From NCBI GenBank assembly GCA_024642145.1, contig JAHEBS010000006.1:1-32591 (forward strand): a stretch of 32,591 bases of DNA, given 5' to 3'. Every line of letters starts with the position of its first letter. Within the stretch, counting starts at the first letter, position 1. This DNA comes from Marivivens sp. Its GTDB lineage: Bacteria > Pseudomonadota > Alphaproteobacteria > Rhodobacterales > Rhodobacteraceae. Position numbers and translations under genes: made by a program. This document shows positions 1 to 18,318 of the stretch, in pieces. The notes beneath the pieces were generated by a model. The model ran no database searches. It saw only the letters and a list, made by a program, of their open reading frames with translations, and was not told the DNA's origin.

Positions 1-480
1 GAAGTCGCGGCCCTGCTTGATGTTCAGGACACGCTCTTGGGCGTCGGTGGCGAAAGCCTGTTGTCAACCGAGGCCCTGCGTCACGTGGTCACCCGCCTCA
101 GCGATGAGGGCCTGACGATCGAGGTGTTTGCGATGGACGGCGCGCCCCTGTTTCTGGGCGACACCGATACCCCGACGCCGCTTTTGACCGAGGTCATGGC
201 GGCTCTGGCCCGCGTCTCGAACATGGTTACCAACCCCGTCGCAGTCACCGCAAGCACGCGGACGCGGACCGTGCTGCTGCGCGATGATCCGGTCTGGACC
301 TTGACGATGTCATGGGCCGCGCAAAGCCAGATCTTGCTGCAACAGGGCGGGATGCCAACGACACGTTTCCGGCGCGTCACGGGTCAGGGCGCCAGCCAGC
401 CCGCGGTCGAGATTCCTTTTGCGCGGCGAAATGACCGCGTCGAGGTCACCTTTCTGCGGATGAACGGGCAGCGCGGTTAG
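1..480 (+). CDS. motB: Flagellar motor protein MotB, C-terminal part (5' end outside window)
   Basis: The reading frame is open from base 1, so the track start (TTG at 37) is an artefact and the gene begins left of the window. About 159 C-terminal residues are visible. They resemble the OmpA-like peptidoglycan-binding half of alphaproteobacterial MotB: a segment 'GVGGESLLS' after the linker, then 'TDEGL-like' sequence 'LSDEGLTIEVFAMDG', a repeat of hydrophobic strands, and a C-terminal 'RRNDRVEVTFLR' typical of the domain end. MotB pairs with MotA as the stator and anchors it to peptidoglycan. The signature normally written NxxLSxxRA reads 'DPVWTLTMSWAAQ' here, with Trp where the conserved Arg is expected; see findings. 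motA is some 10 kb away in this cluster rather than adjacent. flgE follows 60 bp downstream. The family call is by recalled similarity; the membrane segment with the proton-binding Asp is not visible. Confidence 0.82.
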   Translation, partial: EVAALLDVQDTLLGVGGESLLSTEALRHVVTRLSDEGLTIEVFAMDGAPLFLGDTDTPTPLLTEVMAALARVSNMVTNPVAVTASTRTRTVLLRDDPVWTLTMSWAAQSQILLQQGGMPTTRFRRVTGQGASQPAVEIPFARRNDRVEVTFLRMNGQRG

Positions 481-6985: not shown

Positions 6986-8494
6986 TCAAGCCTCGACCTC
7001 GGGCTCTTCAACCCATGATTGCAACACACGGAGCGCTTCGGTCTGGCGCGCCTCGATCATGTCGCGCACACGCGCAACGGGGTCCTGTTTCTGTTGCGGT
7101 TCGGTCGGCGGCGCGAGGGCCGTAACTTGCGCGGCTTCGGCAAGCAATTGGCGCTGGGGTTCTGTCGGCGGCAACCGACGTCCCGCCAGAACTGGTCGCA
7201 CCACAAACAGACCCAAAATAAGAGCAACAGCGCCTAAAATACCGGCGCGCGCGAGGTCAGTTAGCGAAAGGTTTTGTGGCGCAAGGGCAACGCTACCGGC
7301 GTCGCGCAGGGGCTCGAACGGCATCGAGCGCACCGAGATGCGGTCGCCGCGCGATTCATCCACACCAACCGTCATGGCCACAAGCTCGGACAAGGCTGCA
7401 AGCTCTTCGCTGCTGCGCGGGGTCGAGGTCACATTGCCCTGTGTGTCGGTGGCGATGATGTCGTTCACCAAAACCGCAACCGTCATGCGGCGAATGCCCC
7501 CGGGGGCGCGGTTTAGACTGCGTTGGGTTTCGGAGATTTCATAATTGGTCAATGTGCGGGCCTCAGAGTTCTGGCTCTGGCTGGTGCCGCCGCCACCCGC
7601 ATCGCCCGTGGGCAGGTTCGACGCCACGGTTACCGCGCCGGTGTCAGCATTTTGGGCATTTGCCGTATTTTCAGTCACGTCGGTGCTGATCGCGACGCGC
7701 GTGGTCGGGTCCAGCGTGCGCTGGGTCAGCGTCTCGGTTTCGGTCACTTCGTCGATACTGACCTCGACCACGGCGTTGCCAATGCCCACGCGCGCCTCGA
7801 CCAACCTCTCGGCGTTATTGCGCAAAACCTCGGCACGGGTCGCGGCGCTGTGTGTCGGATCGTCGCCGCTGATCAGGCCGGCCTCGGAATCGATGATGGA
7901 CACGGATTCGGGGATCAGACCGGGCACCGACGAGGCAACAAGATAGCGCAGCGCCAGAATTTGCGGCGGGGTCAGCGACATGCCGGCGGTCGATACTGTC
8001 ACCGCGGCGGTCGGCGTGCTTGGCCGGTCAAAGCCGCGTGAAACCGGCGCCGAAATATGCACCCGTGCCGCGCGAATACGCGGATTGGCAAGGATCGTGC
8101 GGGCCAATTCACCCTCTTTGGCCCGCCAATACGCCGCGTCGAACATTTCGGACGTCGTGCCAAAACCCGACAACCCGTCCAGCAATTCATAGCCTTGGCT
8201 CGAAGGCGCGGGCAGACCCTGACCGGCCAAGGTCAGGCGCAACGCGTCGCGGTCAGACTGCGGCACCCAGATCGAATCGCCCCGCACCTGATAGGACACG
8301 CCCTGTTGTTCAAGCGCGGTCACAACGCCGCCCGCGACCGCTGGATCCAGATTGCTGTAGAGCAACAACATCGTCGGCGACAAAGCCGTGCGCGACAGCA
8401 ACAAAACCGCCGCAAACATTGCGATCGTCGCACCGATAACGACCACCCTTTTGCGCAAATCCAGCGCCGACCAGATTGAGACGACAGGGTTCAT
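6986..8494 (-). CDS. fliF: Flagellar MS-ring protein FliF
   Basis: 502 aa. An N-terminal membrane helix (about residues 18-36) leads into ring-building motifs with 'YSNLDPAVAGGVVTALEQQG' and 'GYELLDGLSGFGTTSEMFDA', then 'LARTILANPRIRAARVHISA', all classic FliF/YscJ blocks. A low-complexity periplasmic loop (about 300-320), a second membrane helix (about 417-436) and a cytoplasmic tail follow. The last helix 'RVRDMIEARQTEALRVLQSW' (about 474-495) matches the FliG-binding end of FliF, although no fliG lies next door. The ATG at 8494 has GGAG seven bases upstream. First gene of the minus-strand operon and divergent from fliL across a CtrA-like site. Confidence 0.96.
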   Translation of the reverse strand: MNPVVSIWSALDLRKRVVVIGATIAMFAAVLLLSRTALSPTMLLLYSNLDPAVAGGVVTALEQQGVSYQVRGDSIWVPQSDRDALRLTLAGQGLPAPSSQGYELLDGLSGFGTTSEMFDAAYWRAKEGELARTILANPRIRAARVHISAPVSRGFDRPSTPTAAVTVSTAGMSLTPPQILALRYLVASSVPGLIPESVSIIDSEAGLISGDDPTHSAATRAEVLRNNAERLVEARVGIGNAVVEVSIDEVTETETLTQRTLDPTTRVAISTDVTENTANAQNADTGAVTVASNLPTGDAGGGGTSQSQNSEARTLTNYEISETQRSLNRAPGGIRRMTVAVLVNDIIATDTQGNVTSTPRSSEELAALSELVAMTVGVDESRGDRISVRSMPFEPLRDAGSVALAPQNLSLTDLARAGILGAVALILGLFVVRPVLAGRRLPPTEPQRQLLAEAAQVTALAPPTEPQQKQDPVARVRDMIEARQTEALRVLQSWVEEPEVEA

Positions 8495-8544
8495 TCCGTT
8501 CTCCGCGAGCCTTCTGCCCGTGAATCACAATTGGCTGCTCGGAC

Positions 8545-8559
8545 TTAAGATTCGGTTAG
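8545..8559 (+). promoter_or_regulatory. CtrA-like binding site between fliF and fliL
   Basis: TTAA-N7-TTAG, 7 of 8 consensus positions, in the 109-base divergent gap. Its centre (8552) is 58 bases from the fliF ATG and 52 from the fliL GTG, so a single bound CtrA dimer could serve both directions with short leaders. The motif is seen; binding is inferred. Confidence 0.5.
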
Positions 8560-8603
8560 TCGCTTGGCGCTATCCAGATCGGGAGAATAAGGAGAATCCG
8601 ACT

Positions 8604-9170
8604 GTGACCGCGACTGTCGATGCCGTCCCTGCAAGGACCAGACCGCCAATTCTGTTGGCGGCGCTGTTGCTGATTCTGGGCCTTGGTGCCGGCTTTGGCG
8701 TGGTGCGGGGTGTGTTGCCGATTCTGGGTGGCGCCGGCGGCCAGTCAGCCGCATCCGATGCGCATCCGGCGGCAGATACGCAGGAAACCGCAACCGCTGC
8801 GCATGCTGCGCCTACTGGTGAAACCGCGTCGGGCCACGGCGTGGCAACCGATGGGCACGCGACCCCGTCGGGGCCGGTCTTTGTGCCGCTCGCCCCGATT
8901 TTGGTGATGTTGCCGCCCGGAAGTGGCCCGCACCATCTGCGGTTTGTCGCCCAATTGGATGTCGAACCGGCGCATGCGGATGAAGTTTCGGTCATCACCC
9001 CGCGCATCATTGATGCCTTCAACGCCTATTTGCGCGCGGTCGAAGTCAATGAGTTGCAAGATCCCGCGGCGTTGCTGCGGCTTCGGTCCCAGCTGTTACG
9101 GCGGGCGCAGGTCATTGCCGGCGTAGGGATGGTGAATGACCTGCTGGTAATGGAATTTGTTTTGAATTGA
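8604..9170 (+). CDS. fliL: Flagellar basal body-associated protein FliL (first copy)
   Basis: 188 aa. The track ORF begins at 8388 inside fliF; I place the start at GTG 8604, preceded by AAGGAG at 8589-8594, which gives a short cytoplasmic N-terminus and one membrane helix ('PILLAALLLILGLGAGFGVV'). A His/Ala/Thr-rich linker (about residues 45-90) leads to the periplasmic FliL domain: 'FVPLAPILVMLPPG', 'LRFVAQLDVEP', 'ITPRIIDAFNAYLRAV' and the end 'GVGMVNDLLVMEFVLN'. FliL surrounds the stator units and supports torque or swimming. A second FliL-like gene occurs at 17839-18318. First gene of a long plus-strand operon through flhB. Confidence 0.9.
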   Translation: MTATVDAVPARTRPPILLAALLLILGLGAGFGVVRGVLPILGGAGGQSAASDAHPAADTQETATAAHAAPTGETASGHGVATDGHATPSGPVFVPLAPILVMLPPGSGPHHLRFVAQLDVEPAHADEVSVITPRIIDAFNAYLRAVEVNELQDPAALLRLRSQLLRRAQVIAGVGMVNDLLVMEFVLN

Positions 9171-9177
9171 GGCCCTT

Positions 9178-9516
9178 ATGACGTTCTTGGCGGACATTCT
9201 TCTTGCGGCAGGCGCGCTGGGGGCGGCGTTTTACTGTTGGGTTCTCTCACGCCGCCTCCATGCGCTGACAAGCCTTGAAGGCGGCATCGGCGGGGCGGTG
9301 GCGCTCTTGTCCGTGCAGGTAGACGAATTGACGCGCGCGCTGGAACATACGGGAGCTGCCGCAAGGACACAGGGCGACAGCCTTTCCGCAACTGTCGCGC
9401 GGGCCGAGGCAGCATCGCGGCAGTTGGAATTGCTGATCGCGGCGCTGCACGACGTGCCGACCAATACGGCCGTAGGTCTCGATCCGTTCTTTCGCAAGTC
9501 GGGAACCGCCGCATGA
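9178..9516 (+). CDS. Small membrane-anchored flagellar-operon protein, function unknown
   Basis: 112 aa that I do not recognise with confidence. It has one N-terminal membrane helix ('LADILLAAGALGAAFYCWVL') and a basic stop 'SRRLHAL', placing the rest in the cytoplasm. A helical, probably coiled-coil stretch follows (about residues 40-90, rich in Ala, Glu and Leu), ending in 'VGLDPFFRKSGTAA'. It sits seven bases after fliL and overlaps the MotE-like gene by ATGA, so it is likely made with stator components. It recalls small DUF6468-type proteins found beside fliL in alphaproteobacteria, but that is a guess from context and shape. Confidence 0.6.
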   Translation: MTFLADILLAAGALGAAFYCWVLSRRLHALTSLEGGIGGAVALLSVQVDELTRALEHTGAAARTQGDSLSATVARAEAASRQLELLIAALHDVPTNTAVGLDPFFRKSGTAA

Positions 9517-10067
9517 CCCGTCTGCGACCGATTGGGACGATGACGGTGATCGCGTTGCTCCTTCTGCTTTCGGGGGCAATCAGGATCGGGACCCAAGCCG
9601 GTGCTGCCTTTGCCAGTGCAGGTGACGCGGTTTCGGCCTTGCCCGAGGACGGGTGCGCGGATGCCCCCGAAGCCCTTTTGCGCGCTTTACAACAACGCGA
9701 AACAGCGGCTGCGCAAATGGAAGATGACCTTGCCGCGCGCGCGGCTGCGCTTGACGCGGCCGAGGCCGCTGTGCGCGCGAAGCTTGATGAATTGGCCAGT
9801 GCCGAGGCAAGCCTTAATGGCACAATGGCGCAGGCCTCGGTGGCGGCGTCCGGTGACGTCAGCCGTCTGGTTGCGCTTTATCAGGCGATGCGTCCGCAGG
9901 ATGCCGCGGCGGTCATCACCCAAATGCCGCCCTCGTTTGCAGCGGGTTTTGTTGCCGAAATGCAGCCCGAGGCGGGCGCGGCGATCCTTGCCAAGCTCGA
10001 CCCCCAGATTGCCTTTGCGATCAGCGCCGAAATTGCTGGCCGCAATGCCCGCGCCCCGACCGAGTGA
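9513..10067 (+). CDS. MotE-like flagellar protein
   Basis: 184 aa: an N-terminal membrane helix or uncleaved signal ('MTVIALLLLLSGAIRIGTQA'), a periplasmic coiled coil (about 65-115, 'ALLRALQQRETAAAQMEDDL'), and a C-terminal domain 'LVALYQAMRPQDAAAVITQM' and 'AAILAKLDPQIAFAISAEI'. The last part matches the MgtE-N/FliG-N-like helical repeat of the MotE family, which in rhizobia acts as a MotC chaperone or stabiliser. Here it lies two genes before motA and one gene before the 629-aa exported protein, so a role in stator assembly is likely. ATGA overlap with the gene before; 54 bases to motA. Confidence 0.7.
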   Translation: MTRLRPIGTMTVIALLLLLSGAIRIGTQAGAAFASAGDAVSALPEDGCADAPEALLRALQQRETAAAQMEDDLAARAAALDAAEAAVRAKLDELASAEASLNGTMAQASVAASGDVSRLVALYQAMRPQDAAAVITQMPPSFAAGFVAEMQPEAGAAILAKLDPQIAFAISAEIAGRNARAPTE

Positions 10068-10121: not shown

Positions 10122-10991
10122 ATGGTCGGAATCATCGGTATCGTCATGATCTTTGTCATGGTTTTCGGCGGCTACGTTCTTGCCGGGGGCCATATGGAGA
10201 TGATCCTCCATTCGTTGCCCTACGAGTTGATGATGATCGGCGGCGCAGCCGTGGGCGCCTTCGTGATTTCGAACGACTTTTCAACGGTCAAGGCTACGTT
10301 CAAGGCGGTAGGCAAGGTCTTCAAGGGCCCAAAATGGAAGTCAGGTGACTATCGTGATCTTCTGTGTCTGCTGTTCGCGCTTATCCGCGTTGCCAGAGCC
10401 AGCCCCGTAGCCTTGGAGCAACATATTGAAAATGCGCATGATTCAGAAATCTTCGCGACCTACCCGAAGATTCGGGATGACCACGAAGCCGCGCAGTTGA
10501 TCTGCGATACGTTCCGTGCCGCCAGCATGAACTACGACGACCCACATCAGGTCGAGGAGGTGCTGGAAAAGCGGATCGAGGCGCATCTGCACCACGATCT
10601 GCACGCGATGCACGCGCTGCAATCCATGGCGGATGGTTTGCCCGCGCTGGGCATTGTTGCCGCGGTTCTGGGCGTCATCAAGACGATGGGGGCTATCGAC
10701 CAACCGCCGGAAATTCTGGGAAAATTGATTGGTGGCGCGCTGGTCGGCACGTTTCTGGGCGTATTTTTGGCCTACGGTCTGGTCGGACCCTTTGCGGCCA
10801 AGGTCAAGGCGGTCGTGGAAGAGGACGTCTCGTTCTATCGCCTGATCCGCGAGGTGCTGGTCGCAAATCTCTATAACCATAGTCCGCAAAACTGTATTGA
10901 GGTCGGCCGCCAGAATGCGCCGGGCCACCTACGCCCCAGTTACGCCGAACTGGAAGAGGCGCTGAAAGCGATCAAACAGGACGCGGCATGA
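10122..10991 (+). CDS. motA: Flagellar stator protein MotA
   Basis: 289 aa inner-membrane subunit of the proton-driven stator. Four membrane helices: residues about 2-22, 33-50, 172-190 and 203-225. Key features are visible: 'GLPALGIVAAVLGVIKTMG' holds the conserved Pro of helix 3 and 'GALVGTFLGVFLAYGLVGPF' that of helix 4, and the cytoplasmic loop has 'ARASPVALEQHIE', the region whose charged residues interact with FliG. The AGGGAA ribosome site fits the ATG at 10122. Overlaps the next gene by ATGA. motB is not adjacent but at the left edge of the window, before flgE. Confidence 0.96.
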   Translation: MVGIIGIVMIFVMVFGGYVLAGGHMEMILHSLPYELMMIGGAAVGAFVISNDFSTVKATFKAVGKVFKGPKWKSGDYRDLLCLLFALIRVARASPVALEQHIENAHDSEIFATYPKIRDDHEAAQLICDTFRAASMNYDDPHQVEEVLEKRIEAHLHHDLHAMHALQSMADGLPALGIVAAVLGVIKTMGAIDQPPEILGKLIGGALVGTFLGVFLAYGLVGPFAAKVKAVVEEDVSFYRLIREVLVANLYNHSPQNCIEVGRQNAPGHLRPSYAELEEALKAIKQDAA

Positions 10992-12877
10992 GATGGCTGA
11001 TCCTCATTCTGCTGGCGCTGATCGCCTCACCAACCATGGCGGGCGAGGTGCGCGGCGGCCGGCATGAAGGGTTTGTGCGTTTTGTTTTCACCATCCCGTT
11101 TGGTGCAGAATGGCGACTTGGGCGCGTGCCAACTGGTTATGCGCTGTGGGTCGCGGGAAGTGACGCATGGGATATGGGCCCTGCACTGGCCAAGGCCGGC
11201 TATGGCAGGGTCGGCGGGTATGAACAAACGGGCGATGTTTTGAACTTGGTCGTCAACTGCCCCTGCCATGCAGAGGTTATTCCATGGCGACCCGACCGGA
11301 TTGTTTTGGATATTGCAGAGGGACCGGCACCTGCCAGTTCGCCTTTTGAGGATGCCTTCGCGGCACCGAGCGACGTCTTGGCTCAGCCGCCCACCGCAAA
11401 CAGCTTGCCCGCGCTAGCCGAAACCGTGCCAAGCCAAATCCGCCTGATTGCGGACGCAGATCTTGGGGCCGCGAACACCGCGGCAGGAGTCGGCTACGAT
11501 GCGGTTCTGGCTCGCAATCTGGCGCAAGCCATAAGCGACGGGCTCTTGGCGCGCGCAGGGGGAAATGGGTCGGCCGATGTGCAATTTTCGGGTGGATCGG
11601 CCCGCCACGAAATGCCGGGACTTGCGGCGCGCGATGCTTTTGCGGACCCAACGTCGCAGGAATCATCGCTAACCGCTGACGGTTCCCTTTGCCTCGAAGA
11701 CAACGCGTTTGCCTTGCCCGCGTGGGAGGATGCCGAACACTATGTCAGGCTGCTCGCAGAGGCGGGGGCCCAGATCTTTGACGCGCGCGACAGGGTCAGT
11801 GACCAAGCGTTGGAAGTCTATGCGACTGCCTTGGTTGCGGGTGGTTTCGGACGCGAGGCCATAGCGGCGCTGGGCCAATCAGATGTTACAAACTCTGTTC
11901 GTATGCGGATCATACATTTGGCCCAATTGGTCGATGGCGACGAAACCGGCGCGCCAATCTTGGCCGATCAGGCTGGTTGCACGGGCGCTGTGGCGATTTG
12001 GGCCTATCTCGATGGCGCCGGACCCTTGGTGCCTTCGGTCATGAACGCTATCTTGATGCAGATCCGCGCCCTTCCACCGCCGCTACAGGGCGCAATCGGG
12101 CCGCCGTTGGCGCGTCGGTTGCTGACCGATCACGAGCCCGAGGCGGCAGAGGCGGTGCTTGGCTTGGCCGCAACCAGCAGCTTTGCCGCCCGCGCGGACC
12201 TTGCGTTGGTGGAAATCGCGCTCGCAGCGGAAAAGGGCGATACCCCAACTCTGCAAGACAAGATGGCCGCGGTCCTTGGCGACCCGATGTTGTCGCCGGA
12301 AACACTGACCGCGCTTTTGACGCTGGTTGGACAAGGAACCATCGAGGGGAGCGACGATCTGTTGGATAGCGCCGACTTCATGCGGCCCCAGTTTCGCCAG
12401 TCAAAAAGCGGTCCGGATCTTGATCGCGCGCGGATGGCGGCGAGTTTGGAAATGGGCGAATTCGGCAGGGCACGGGTGATCTTGGACGAAGGCGCCCGAC
12501 CGCCGGATGTAGAACACGCTTTGCAGACTATGTTTTTCGATGCAGTGACGACGTCACCGAACGACGGGGTCTTTTTGCGCTACGCCTTCGAAGACCTGCC
12601 TGCGTTAGCCCCGGAAACGGTCAGGGCCATTTCGATTAGGTTAGCGGCACTCGGATTTGCGGCCCGCGCGCAGATGATCGCGCCTGCCCCCACCATCGAG
12701 ATGCAGCTAACGGTTGGTCATGATCAGCAGGCCGTCACGGTACCTGAACTATCGTCACGAATGGCCGCGGCGCCGCCACAAACGCTTGCCGCGTATGGCC
12801 AGCTCTTGGAGGCGGCTTCGGCGACGCGCGACAGAATTGACGCGTTGCTTGCTCTGCCGTCAGACGTGGCGCGCTAA
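10988..12877 (+). CDS. Large exported protein coupled to motA, function unknown
   Basis: 629 aa. The start 'MRWLILILLALIASPTMAGE' is a clear Sec signal peptide, so the mature protein is periplasmic or secreted. Residues about 20-112 form a beta-rich unit ('FVRFVFTIPFGAEWRLGR', 'YALWVAG', 'RIVLDIAEG') that resembles an AMIN-type domain, with a CxC pair at 91-93. A Pro/Ala-rich linker follows, then from about 230 to 600 an Ala/Leu-rich helical solenoid that could be TPR- or HEAT-like. The start overlaps the motA stop (ATGA). The arrangement recalls MotC, the periplasmic MotB partner of rhizobia, but I see no sequence match that proves it. A structural periplasmic role near the stator is my inference. 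Confidence 0.65.
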   Translation: MRWLILILLALIASPTMAGEVRGGRHEGFVRFVFTIPFGAEWRLGRVPTGYALWVAGSDAWDMGPALAKAGYGRVGGYEQTGDVLNLVVNCPCHAEVIPWRPDRIVLDIAEGPAPASSPFEDAFAAPSDVLAQPPTANSLPALAETVPSQIRLIADADLGAANTAAGVGYDAVLARNLAQAISDGLLARAGGNGSADVQFSGGSARHEMPGLAARDAFADPTSQESSLTADGSLCLEDNAFALPAWEDAEHYVRLLAEAGAQIFDARDRVSDQALEVYATALVAGGFGREAIAALGQSDVTNSVRMRIIHLAQLVDGDETGAPILADQAGCTGAVAIWAYLDGAGPLVPSVMNAILMQIRALPPPLQGAIGPPLARRLLTDHEPEAAEAVLGLAATSSFAARADLALVEIALAAEKGDTPTLQDKMAAVLGDPMLSPETLTALLTLVGQGTIEGSDDLLDSADFMRPQFRQSKSGPDLDRARMAASLEMGEFGRARVILDEGARPPDVEHALQTMFFDAVTTSPNDGVFLRYAFEDLPALAPETVRAISIRLAALGFAARAQMIAPAPTIEMQLTVGHDQQAVTVPELSSRMAAAPPQTLAAYGQLLEAASATRDRIDALLALPSDVAR

Positions 12878-12933: not shown

Positions 12934-13593
12934 ATGTCATCTGCAACTCTCATGGCGGCGCTGGTCGCCTGTGTCGTCGGATCGGCAGCTCTGGCCGACC
13001 CGTCCGATCTTTGTCTTTCCGCGGCTCGCACGGCTGCAGCACAGCAGGGGGTTCCTGCTGAAATGATGATTGCCGTCGGTCTCGCTGAAACTGGTCGCCG
13101 TCAAGACGGGGTGCTGCGGCCTTGGCCATGGACGGCCAATCTGAATGGCGAGGGTTTTCGGTTTGACAGCGCGGCCGAGTTGCAGCGTTTTGCCAGCGCC
13201 GCAATTTCGCGGGGTGAAACCAGCATTGATATCGGTTGTTTTCAGGTCAACTACCGCTGGCATGGCGATGCTTTCGGGTCGCTCGAGCAAATGATCGACC
13301 CCTTAACGAATGCCCGATACGCGGCCTACTTTCTGCGCGGGCTTGCCGATGAACTGGGTGGTTGGCAGGCGGCAGTCGGGGCCTATCATTCGCGCAGTCC
13401 GCCGCGTGCGGCGGCCTACCGGCAACGCGTCGCGGATCTACAAGCGGGCCTGCCGCCCGAGGGCGGTTTTCCGGCTTTGCCGCCGCCCACGGACACCCAG
13501 ATTGCACGGCTCAATTCCTTTCCTCTTTTGGGAACGGGCGGCAACGCGGGCGCGCTCGGGTCCTTGGTGCCACTTGGTGGTGACGGCGCATGA
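12934..13593 (+). CDS. Flagellar-type lytic transglycosylase (SltF-like)
   Basis: 219 aa periplasmic enzyme expected to cut peptidoglycan for rod penetration. A signal peptide (about 1-21, ending 'GSAALA') precedes a compact SLT domain. The catalytic Glu is probably E52 in 'GLAETGR'; 'IDIGCFQVNYRWHG' (98-111) and 'AAVGAYHS' (146-153) are the other SLT motifs. The C-terminus from about 170 is a Pro/Gly-rich tail, perhaps for partner binding. Since the FlgJ here (27066-27317) lacks an enzyme domain, this protein likely supplies the activity, as SltF does in Rhodobacter sphaeroides. ATGA overlap with flhA. The ribosome site is weak; AAGGA lies rather far upstream. Confidence 0.83.
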   Translation: MSSATLMAALVACVVGSAALADPSDLCLSAARTAAAQQGVPAEMMIAVGLAETGRRQDGVLRPWPWTANLNGEGFRFDSAAELQRFASAAISRGETSIDIGCFQVNYRWHGDAFGSLEQMIDPLTNARYAAYFLRGLADELGGWQAAVGAYHSRSPPRAAAYRQRVADLQAGLPPEGGFPALPPPTDTQIARLNSFPLLGTGGNAGALGSLVPLGGDGA

Positions 13594-17466: not shown

Positions 17467-17858
17467 GCCGCGATCCGCGTAGCTTGCAGGCCTTGGCCCG
17501 TGTGACCGAGGCCACCTACCAGACTGCCGCGGCAGCGATGGCAGCACTTGCCGCCGAAGAGGCCGCCATCCGGCGCGCGCTCGATGCCCTGTCGCCCCCA
17601 TCGCACGATCTGACGTCGGTCGATCTGGATCCCGCCGCGCGCGCAGGCGCCCATCTCAAGTGGCAACTCTGGGCGGCCGCCCGCCGCGAGGCGCTGCTGG
17701 CAGAGTTGGCGCGCCTGCGTGTCCGCCAAGAGGCGGCGCGAGATGTTCTGGCCCGTGCTTTTGGGCGCAACATGGTGGCGGGTCGCCTGATCGAGCGCGC
17801 CAAGGCAGAGCATGCGCGACAGGCGGCACGGGCCGCTGTCAGAGATCCTGACGCGTGA
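17463..17858 (+). CDS. Small helical cytoplasmic protein, FliJ-like candidate
   Basis: 131 aa. The true start is the ATG at 17463 (ATGA with the flhB stop); the longer track ORF runs backwards through flhB. The protein is almost wholly helical and charged, with no signal or membrane segment: 'LQALARVTEATYQTAAAAMA', then a conserved-looking 'HLKWQLWAAARREALLAELA' and 'ARAFGRNMVAGRLIERAKAE'. Size, charge and coiled-coil tendency suggest a FliJ-type export chaperone or FliI partner, a gene otherwise missing from the window. That is an inference, not a match. Its 3' end overlaps the convergent fliL-like gene by 20 bases. Confidence 0.6.
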   Translation: MSRDPRSLQALARVTEATYQTAAAAMAALAAEEAAIRRALDALSPPSHDLTSVDLDPAARAGAHLKWQLWAAARREALLAELARLRVRQEAARDVLARAFGRNMVAGRLIERAKAEHARQAARAAVRDPDA

Positions 17859-18318
17859 TGTCGAGGATCAGGACGTCGCTGACGCCATCGCCAAGGACCT
17901 CATGCGCGGCAGCCAACAGGCCCGAGCGCAGGCTCCGCATCGGGGTCGAGGCGGTAAAGTCGCCATCGAAACCGCCCAGATTGGCGTGGTCAAACATCAC
18001 TTGCAGAAAGCTGTCGCGCAGGCGCGGCTCAACTGCAAAAACATCGGCCTGCGTGCCTTGCGGCACCTCGATCGTCAGACCCAGTGACATGAGCGACCGA
18101 ATGCGCCCATCGCCGATCACGGGGACGACGAACTGGTTATTCAACCGCGCATATTCGCGGGGCGTTTCGGGCTCGGGCGGCGTTTCGGCCGCGACGTTGT
18201 GTTCTGGGGTGGCGGCGCAGTCGGTGGCGGTCGTCGGCTGGGGCAGGATATAGGCAGCGCCGACCCCACCACCGAGACCGAGGAAAAGCAAAGCCGCGGG
18301 CAGGATAATGGGCTTCAT
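17839..18318 (-). CDS. Second FliL-like protein
   Basis: 159 aa. An N-terminal membrane helix ('ILPAALLFLGLGGGVGAAYI') is followed by a short Pro/Glu-rich linker and a FliL-type periplasmic domain: 'NNQFVVPVIGDGRIRSLMSL', 'LTIEVPQG', 'EPRLRDSFLQVMFDHANLGG' and the end 'VSDVLILDITRQDL'. It has the same layout as the first FliL (8604-9170) but is clearly diverged. Last gene of the flgB-to-flgH operon, eight bases after flgH, with GAGGA before its ATG. Its product may form stator-associated rings with, or instead of, the first copy. Confidence 0.82.
   Translation of the reverse strand: MKPIILPAALLFLGLGGGVGAAYILPQPTTATDCAATPEHNVAAETPPEPETPREYARLNNQFVVPVIGDGRIRSLMSLGLTIEVPQGTQADVFAVEPRLRDSFLQVMFDHANLGGFDGDFTASTPMRSLRSGLLAAAHEVLGDGVSDVLILDITRQDL

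Follow-up and report, generated by a model that had tools for sequence, protein, structure and literature searches.

The gene at positions 10988–12877 (+) of the window, the whole analysed stretch of 32,591 nucleotides of Marivivens sp. DNA, which is also one whole contig of the assembly (C83), encodes MotK, an identity established by its sequence, the order of the genes and its architecture. The original prediction had presented its product, an exported AMIN-solenoid protein of 629 amino acids, as the best candidate for an undescribed component of the flagellar motor, a claim that does not hold because MotK was named in 2024 by Velez-Gonzalez et al. in Cereibacter sphaeroides (RSWS8N_12065, UniProt Q3IY86; PMC10954123) and was reviewed in 2026 (PMC13023049). 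The reading as a whole, in which motK belongs to a fla2-type cluster and its product is a spoke with the AMIN domain on the wall and the solenoid on MotE and MotB, placing or activating MotA/MotB, is in our view almost certainly right. Tying the gene to MotK removes one candidate "undescribed" part of the motor, and leads remain in a class-wide sequence link, a set of four cysteines and an altered wall site in MotB, which together ask which protein anchors these stators.

The genomic context of motK, present as a single copy in the 2.65-Mb assembly, is that of a flagellar cluster. Its ATG overlaps the TGA of motA (10122–10991, +; TIGR03818, 356.7 bits) by 4 nt (ATGA), the start thus lying inside the stop codon, which bears out the originally claimed coupling of the 629-residue frame to motA. 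The MotE-like gene expected upstream was also found: motE, encoding a candidate E-ring protein, lies at 9513–10067 (+) and scores 27.3 bits with Pfam MgtE_N, for a cut-off of 25.9. Its start is overlapped by 4 nt by a pflI-like gene (9178–9516, +; DUF6468, 24.8 bits, slightly below the cut-off), preceded in the same gene run by fliL (8388–9170, +; FliL, 41.6 bits), whose real start is probably downstream of the ORF start at 8388. On the other side, between motK and flhA, there is an SLT-type lytic transglycosylase-like gene (12934–13593, +; SLT_3, 24.1 bits, below the cut-off), possibly coding for the wall-opening enzyme of this flagellum. The order is therefore fliL, pflI, motE, motA, motK, the transglycosylase-like gene and flhA, and flgI, flgK, an flgL-type gene, fliF, fliP, flaF and flbT are found among others in the remaining window. 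A frame of 159 codons at 17839–18318 (−), with a hydrophobic N-terminal segment and a score of 16.2 bits with NF004285 (FliL), far below the cut-off, may possibly be a second FliL-type gene of the cluster.

In content and order, the window operon (fliL-pflI-motE-motA-motK) is the one published for C. sphaeroides, fliL2-pflI-motE-motA2-motK with motK at the end (PMC10954123), and the theme of a MotE-like protein, MotA and a large exported protein was rightly recognized. With BLASTP, the window protein aligns end to end with the MotK of C. johrii (29% identity over 657 columns, E 1e-28). A second homologue, at locus L014 of a genome that carries a second flhA, matches the window protein with E 4e-25; its 652 residues, the published length, and its 91% identity with C. 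johrii MotK indicate that it is probably C. sphaeroides MotK itself. Identities of the window MotK to its relatives reach only 21–31%, and searches with Pfam and NCBIfam found no family for it. An enzyme or transporter family, named in the original prediction as the counter-case, was looked for in these two collections and nothing of weight was obtained, the SorA match, at 13.6 bits for a cut-off of 600, being a chance one.

A model of the protein was calculated with AlphaFold2 on an alignment of 30 sequences (mean pLDDT 81.9), and it bears out the predicted succession of a signal peptide, an AMIN-like unit with a CxC pair, a linker and a helical solenoid. The putative signal peptide (10988–11041, +; residues 1–18, MRWLILILLALIASPTMA), assigned by inspection, contains a model helix at residues 2–12, and is followed by an AMIN-type beta domain (11042–11320, +; residues 19–111) with eight strands and one helix, carrying the CPC pair C91/C93. 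The flexible linker (11321–11731, +; residues 112–248), modelled with low confidence at about residues 136–224, has one helix at 167–183 and a conserved C235 near its end. An unbroken helical solenoid then extends over residues 249–575 (11732–12712, +) with a conserved C331; on the basis of the model, it is of the TPR type, with repeated helix pairs. After a variable stretch, a C-terminal helix (12785–12853, +; residues 600–622) is kept across the family.

Fold comparisons with AMIN and TPR proteins, put forward along with the original prediction, gave matches on both sides. For the N-terminal domain alone (pLDDT 95), the first Foldseek matches were AmiC (4bin) and PilQ, with TM values of 0.63–0.70 and modest E-values. 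The domain has in common with AmiC-type amidases an R.G.H...TR pattern, and hhalign of the MotK profile against the AMIN domains of these amidases, a comparison of sequences only, gave 96% and E 1.9e-9. Pfam AMIN and the Pfam TPR models gave no score on the window MotK; as judged from its sequence signature and its modelled fold, the N-terminal domain is of the AMIN type. When the whole model was compared with the PDB, many PPR/TPR-type solenoids were listed and AmiC appeared at rank 20, while rank 2 was occupied by a periplasmic scaffold of the Campylobacter jejuni motor, 9hmf_K (E 9e-4), a match that is weak taken alone given its low global TM of 0.16–0.19. From its length of 773 residues, we infer that this chain is PflA.

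The gene is clearly real, with homologues in 104 of 199 Rhodobacteraceae genomes by single-sequence search and in 133 of the 199 by profile search. MotK was detected in 131 of the 136 genomes whose FlhA is of the window type, compared with 2 of the 63 others (Fisher p 1e-42), one of these two being a weak AMIN-only match, and it goes with a vertically inherited flagellum across the family. Conservation extends to the neighbourhood, as PflI-MotE-MotA-MotK occurs in 74 of the 80 named loci of the family (in two of them with overlapping mechanical ORF starts), a pflI homologue in 77 and a homologue of the transglycosylase-like gene in 60. The 4-nt overlap with motA is available in 27 of the 29 family loci with motA in view, the window counted, a number that leans towards overlap because the starts were picked nearest the motA stop.

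Thirteen columns are invariant in the 30-member MotK alignment, including four cysteines, a set that we did not find in the MotK literature. In the window protein these are C91, C93, C235 and C331, and it has no other cysteine. The MotE cysteine (C48 in the window) is in turn conserved in 75 of 77 MotE sequences of the family, and since PMC10954123 mentions cysteine for MotE only, a role of the MotK cysteines appears to be unreported. At two family loci, L002 and L006, a residue is inserted in the AMIN CxC pair (CTNC and CETC).

Outside the family, a class-wide search with the MotK profile detected proteins of about 1000–1400 amino acids in many genomes. As the matches also include other repeat proteins and alphaproteobacterial AmiC-type amidases, the latter found through their AMIN domains, a MotE neighbour was required for a match to be considered MotK-like. 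Twenty loci were taken from the best matches, with MotE playing no part in their choice; a MotE-like ORF was present in 19, and 17 had both MotE and a MotK-like ORF, 0.1–3.2 kb apart on the same strand. In most of the non-family genomes (L124–L142), motE and the MotK-like gene are separated by one to three ORFs of about 130–300 amino acids. Profile-profile comparison of MotK with 11 of the class-wide proteins, none of them named CC_2058, gave 99.9% and E 8e-36 over 403 columns of the solenoid. PMC10954123 reported no BLAST similarity of MotK to Caulobacteraceae proteins, the link there coming from the predicted fold. The sequence-profile homology with the class-wide AMIN-solenoid proteins of 1000–1400 residues, which we did not encounter in work on MotK, supports the relationship between MotK and the Caulobacter type more firmly than the fold, for sequences that are not themselves named as CC_2058.

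A further observation concerns MotB, whose gene is split by the contig end: the C-terminal part is found at window positions 1–480 (+) and the N-terminal half on contig C159 (20290–20562). Pfam OmpA gave no score on the window fragment, scores weakly on the MotB of two relatives and passes its cut-off on one. In Helicobacter pylori MotB, Gly161, Asp164, Leu179, Arg183 and Arg226 are thought to be essential for the recognition of peptidoglycan (PMC3080404). The altered signature that had been pointed out is real, as two residues linked with the binding of peptidoglycan are absent from the window MotB. Of the 16 family MotBs examined, the window one included, none has the Asp of the GHTD motif, whereas 26 of 28 MotBs belonging to other families of the class retain it. 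The Arg of the RA motif, on the other hand, is replaced by Trp only in the window, where WDxSxxRA reads WTLTMSWA; the other 15 family MotBs retain it. A wholly family-wide alteration is thus half right, for the Asp and not for the Arg; neither the family loss of the Asp nor the additional loss of the Arg in the window was found in the literature on MotK. These changes fit, without showing it, a shift of anchoring towards MotK. That the wall grip of the stator has been transferred in part from MotB to MotK, whose AMIN domain, held by the conserved family-specific cysteines, would carry the anchor, is a tentative and rather unlikely proposal, and a simple swap is countered by the AMIN-bearing MotK-like proteins found in other members of the class, in which the Asp of MotB is mostly retained.

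The function of the protein can be approached through its C. sphaeroides orthologue, which binds MotE and MotB2 and whose loss leaves flagella assembled but paralysed, the protein being essential for rotation (PMC10954123). In later papers, MotE was assigned to the flagellar E-ring and MotK was grouped with the PflA-type spokes (PMC13023049, PMC11870540), the 2026 review treating MotK as resembling PflA and as partnering the E-ring of MotE (PMC13023049). In the window, a possible link with the E-ring is suggested by the proximity of motE and motK, the MgtE_N score above the cut-off, a score of 24.2 bits with the FlbB model and the 9hmf_K fold match, with its low TM. In the proposed mechanism, MotK would be exported to the periplasm, where its AMIN domain most likely holds the peptidoglycan and its solenoid may bind the MotE ring and periplasmic MotB, the binding being known from the C. 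sphaeroides orthologue and its assignment to this domain being ours. As a spoke, MotK would in this way connect the E-ring formed by MotE with the cell wall and the stator, and would place or activate (open) the MotA/MotB units and let the flagellum turn. Without it, flagella would be expected to assemble but not to turn, as described for C. sphaeroides motK and Caulobacter CC_2058. Of the stator scaffold or peptidoglycan bridge originally imagined, involvement with the stator is backed by the C. sphaeroides orthologue (PMC10954123); contact with the wall we infer.

A role of MotK mainly as a periplasmic chaperone or stabiliser of MotE, without a structural part in the motor, could be suggested by the degradation of C. 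sphaeroides MotE in the absence of MotK (PMC10954123), and has a precedent in the S. meliloti MotE/MotC pair, first read as a chaperone and its client (PMC13023049). Localisation data make this less likely: MotK-sfGFP is found at the flagellated pole together with the hook in a manner dependent on MotA2/MotB2, whereas MotE-sfGFP localises without MotK (PMC10954123). Since the AMIN and solenoid architecture and the class-wide conservation also suit a structural part, we consider the chaperone-only reading improbable. A similarly low probability is given to the window protein being a strict orthologue of MotC: a common partner, MotE, a TPR-like solenoid and the proposal that MotC and MotK are very divergent homologues (PMC13023049) would agree with it, but MotC is reportedly without an AMIN domain (PMC13023049) and encoded downstream of motB. 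Finally, an involvement of MotK in flagellar assembly or wall remodelling with the transglycosylase-like protein encoded 3′ of it in most loci, rather than in rotation, may be suggested by the AMIN domains of wall amidases, but is highly improbable given that mutants in C. sphaeroides motK or Caulobacter fssB still build their filaments and are yet paralysed.

With MotK as a proposed spoke, a close structural parallel is the PflA protein of C. jejuni, a spoke of the periplasmic scaffold, where an AMIN-like beta domain and a TPR solenoid sit on an E-ring made of the MotE homologue FlgY. Beyond the rank 2 position in Foldseek, homology between PflA and MotK has been proposed (PMC13023049, PMC11870540); however, no sequence match between both proteins was found, the global TM is low, and the motor of C. 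jejuni contains additional scaffold parts beyond those known in the MotK family. The MotC of Sinorhizobium meliloti is likewise large and periplasmic, partners with MotE and is required for rotation, but it has no reported AMIN domain and its gene comes after motB. Moreover, the stability relationship is reversed, as S. meliloti MotC depends on MotE whereas C. sphaeroides MotE depends on MotK.

Caulobacter crescentus CC_2058 and the class-wide proteins resemble MotK in having a MotE-linked gene, an AMIN N-terminus and helical repeats, and for CC_2058 (fssB) the likeness extends to the mutants, which assemble filaments with paralysed flagella (PMC7885107) as described for C. sphaeroides motK. 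The class-wide proteins differ in their size (about 980–1400 amino acids versus 630–810 for MotK), in the absence of the four cysteines of the MotK family and in the position of motA, which is beside only 1 of the 20 fetched loci. Also among the closest known relatives is C. sphaeroides MotK, a periplasmic protein studied by experiment, whose N-terminus is AMIN-like and whose C-terminus is TPR-like (PMC10954123). Differences between them comprise a length of 652 versus 629 amino acids, a low identity and, in the window genome, a more degenerate MotB. Both the L014 homologue and the window protein are short forms, whose profile match ends around position 605 of 740 and does not reach the final repeat segment that most members have, and C. 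sphaeroides MotK and the window protein have in common the operon, the neighbours, the domain order and a homology that extends over their full length.
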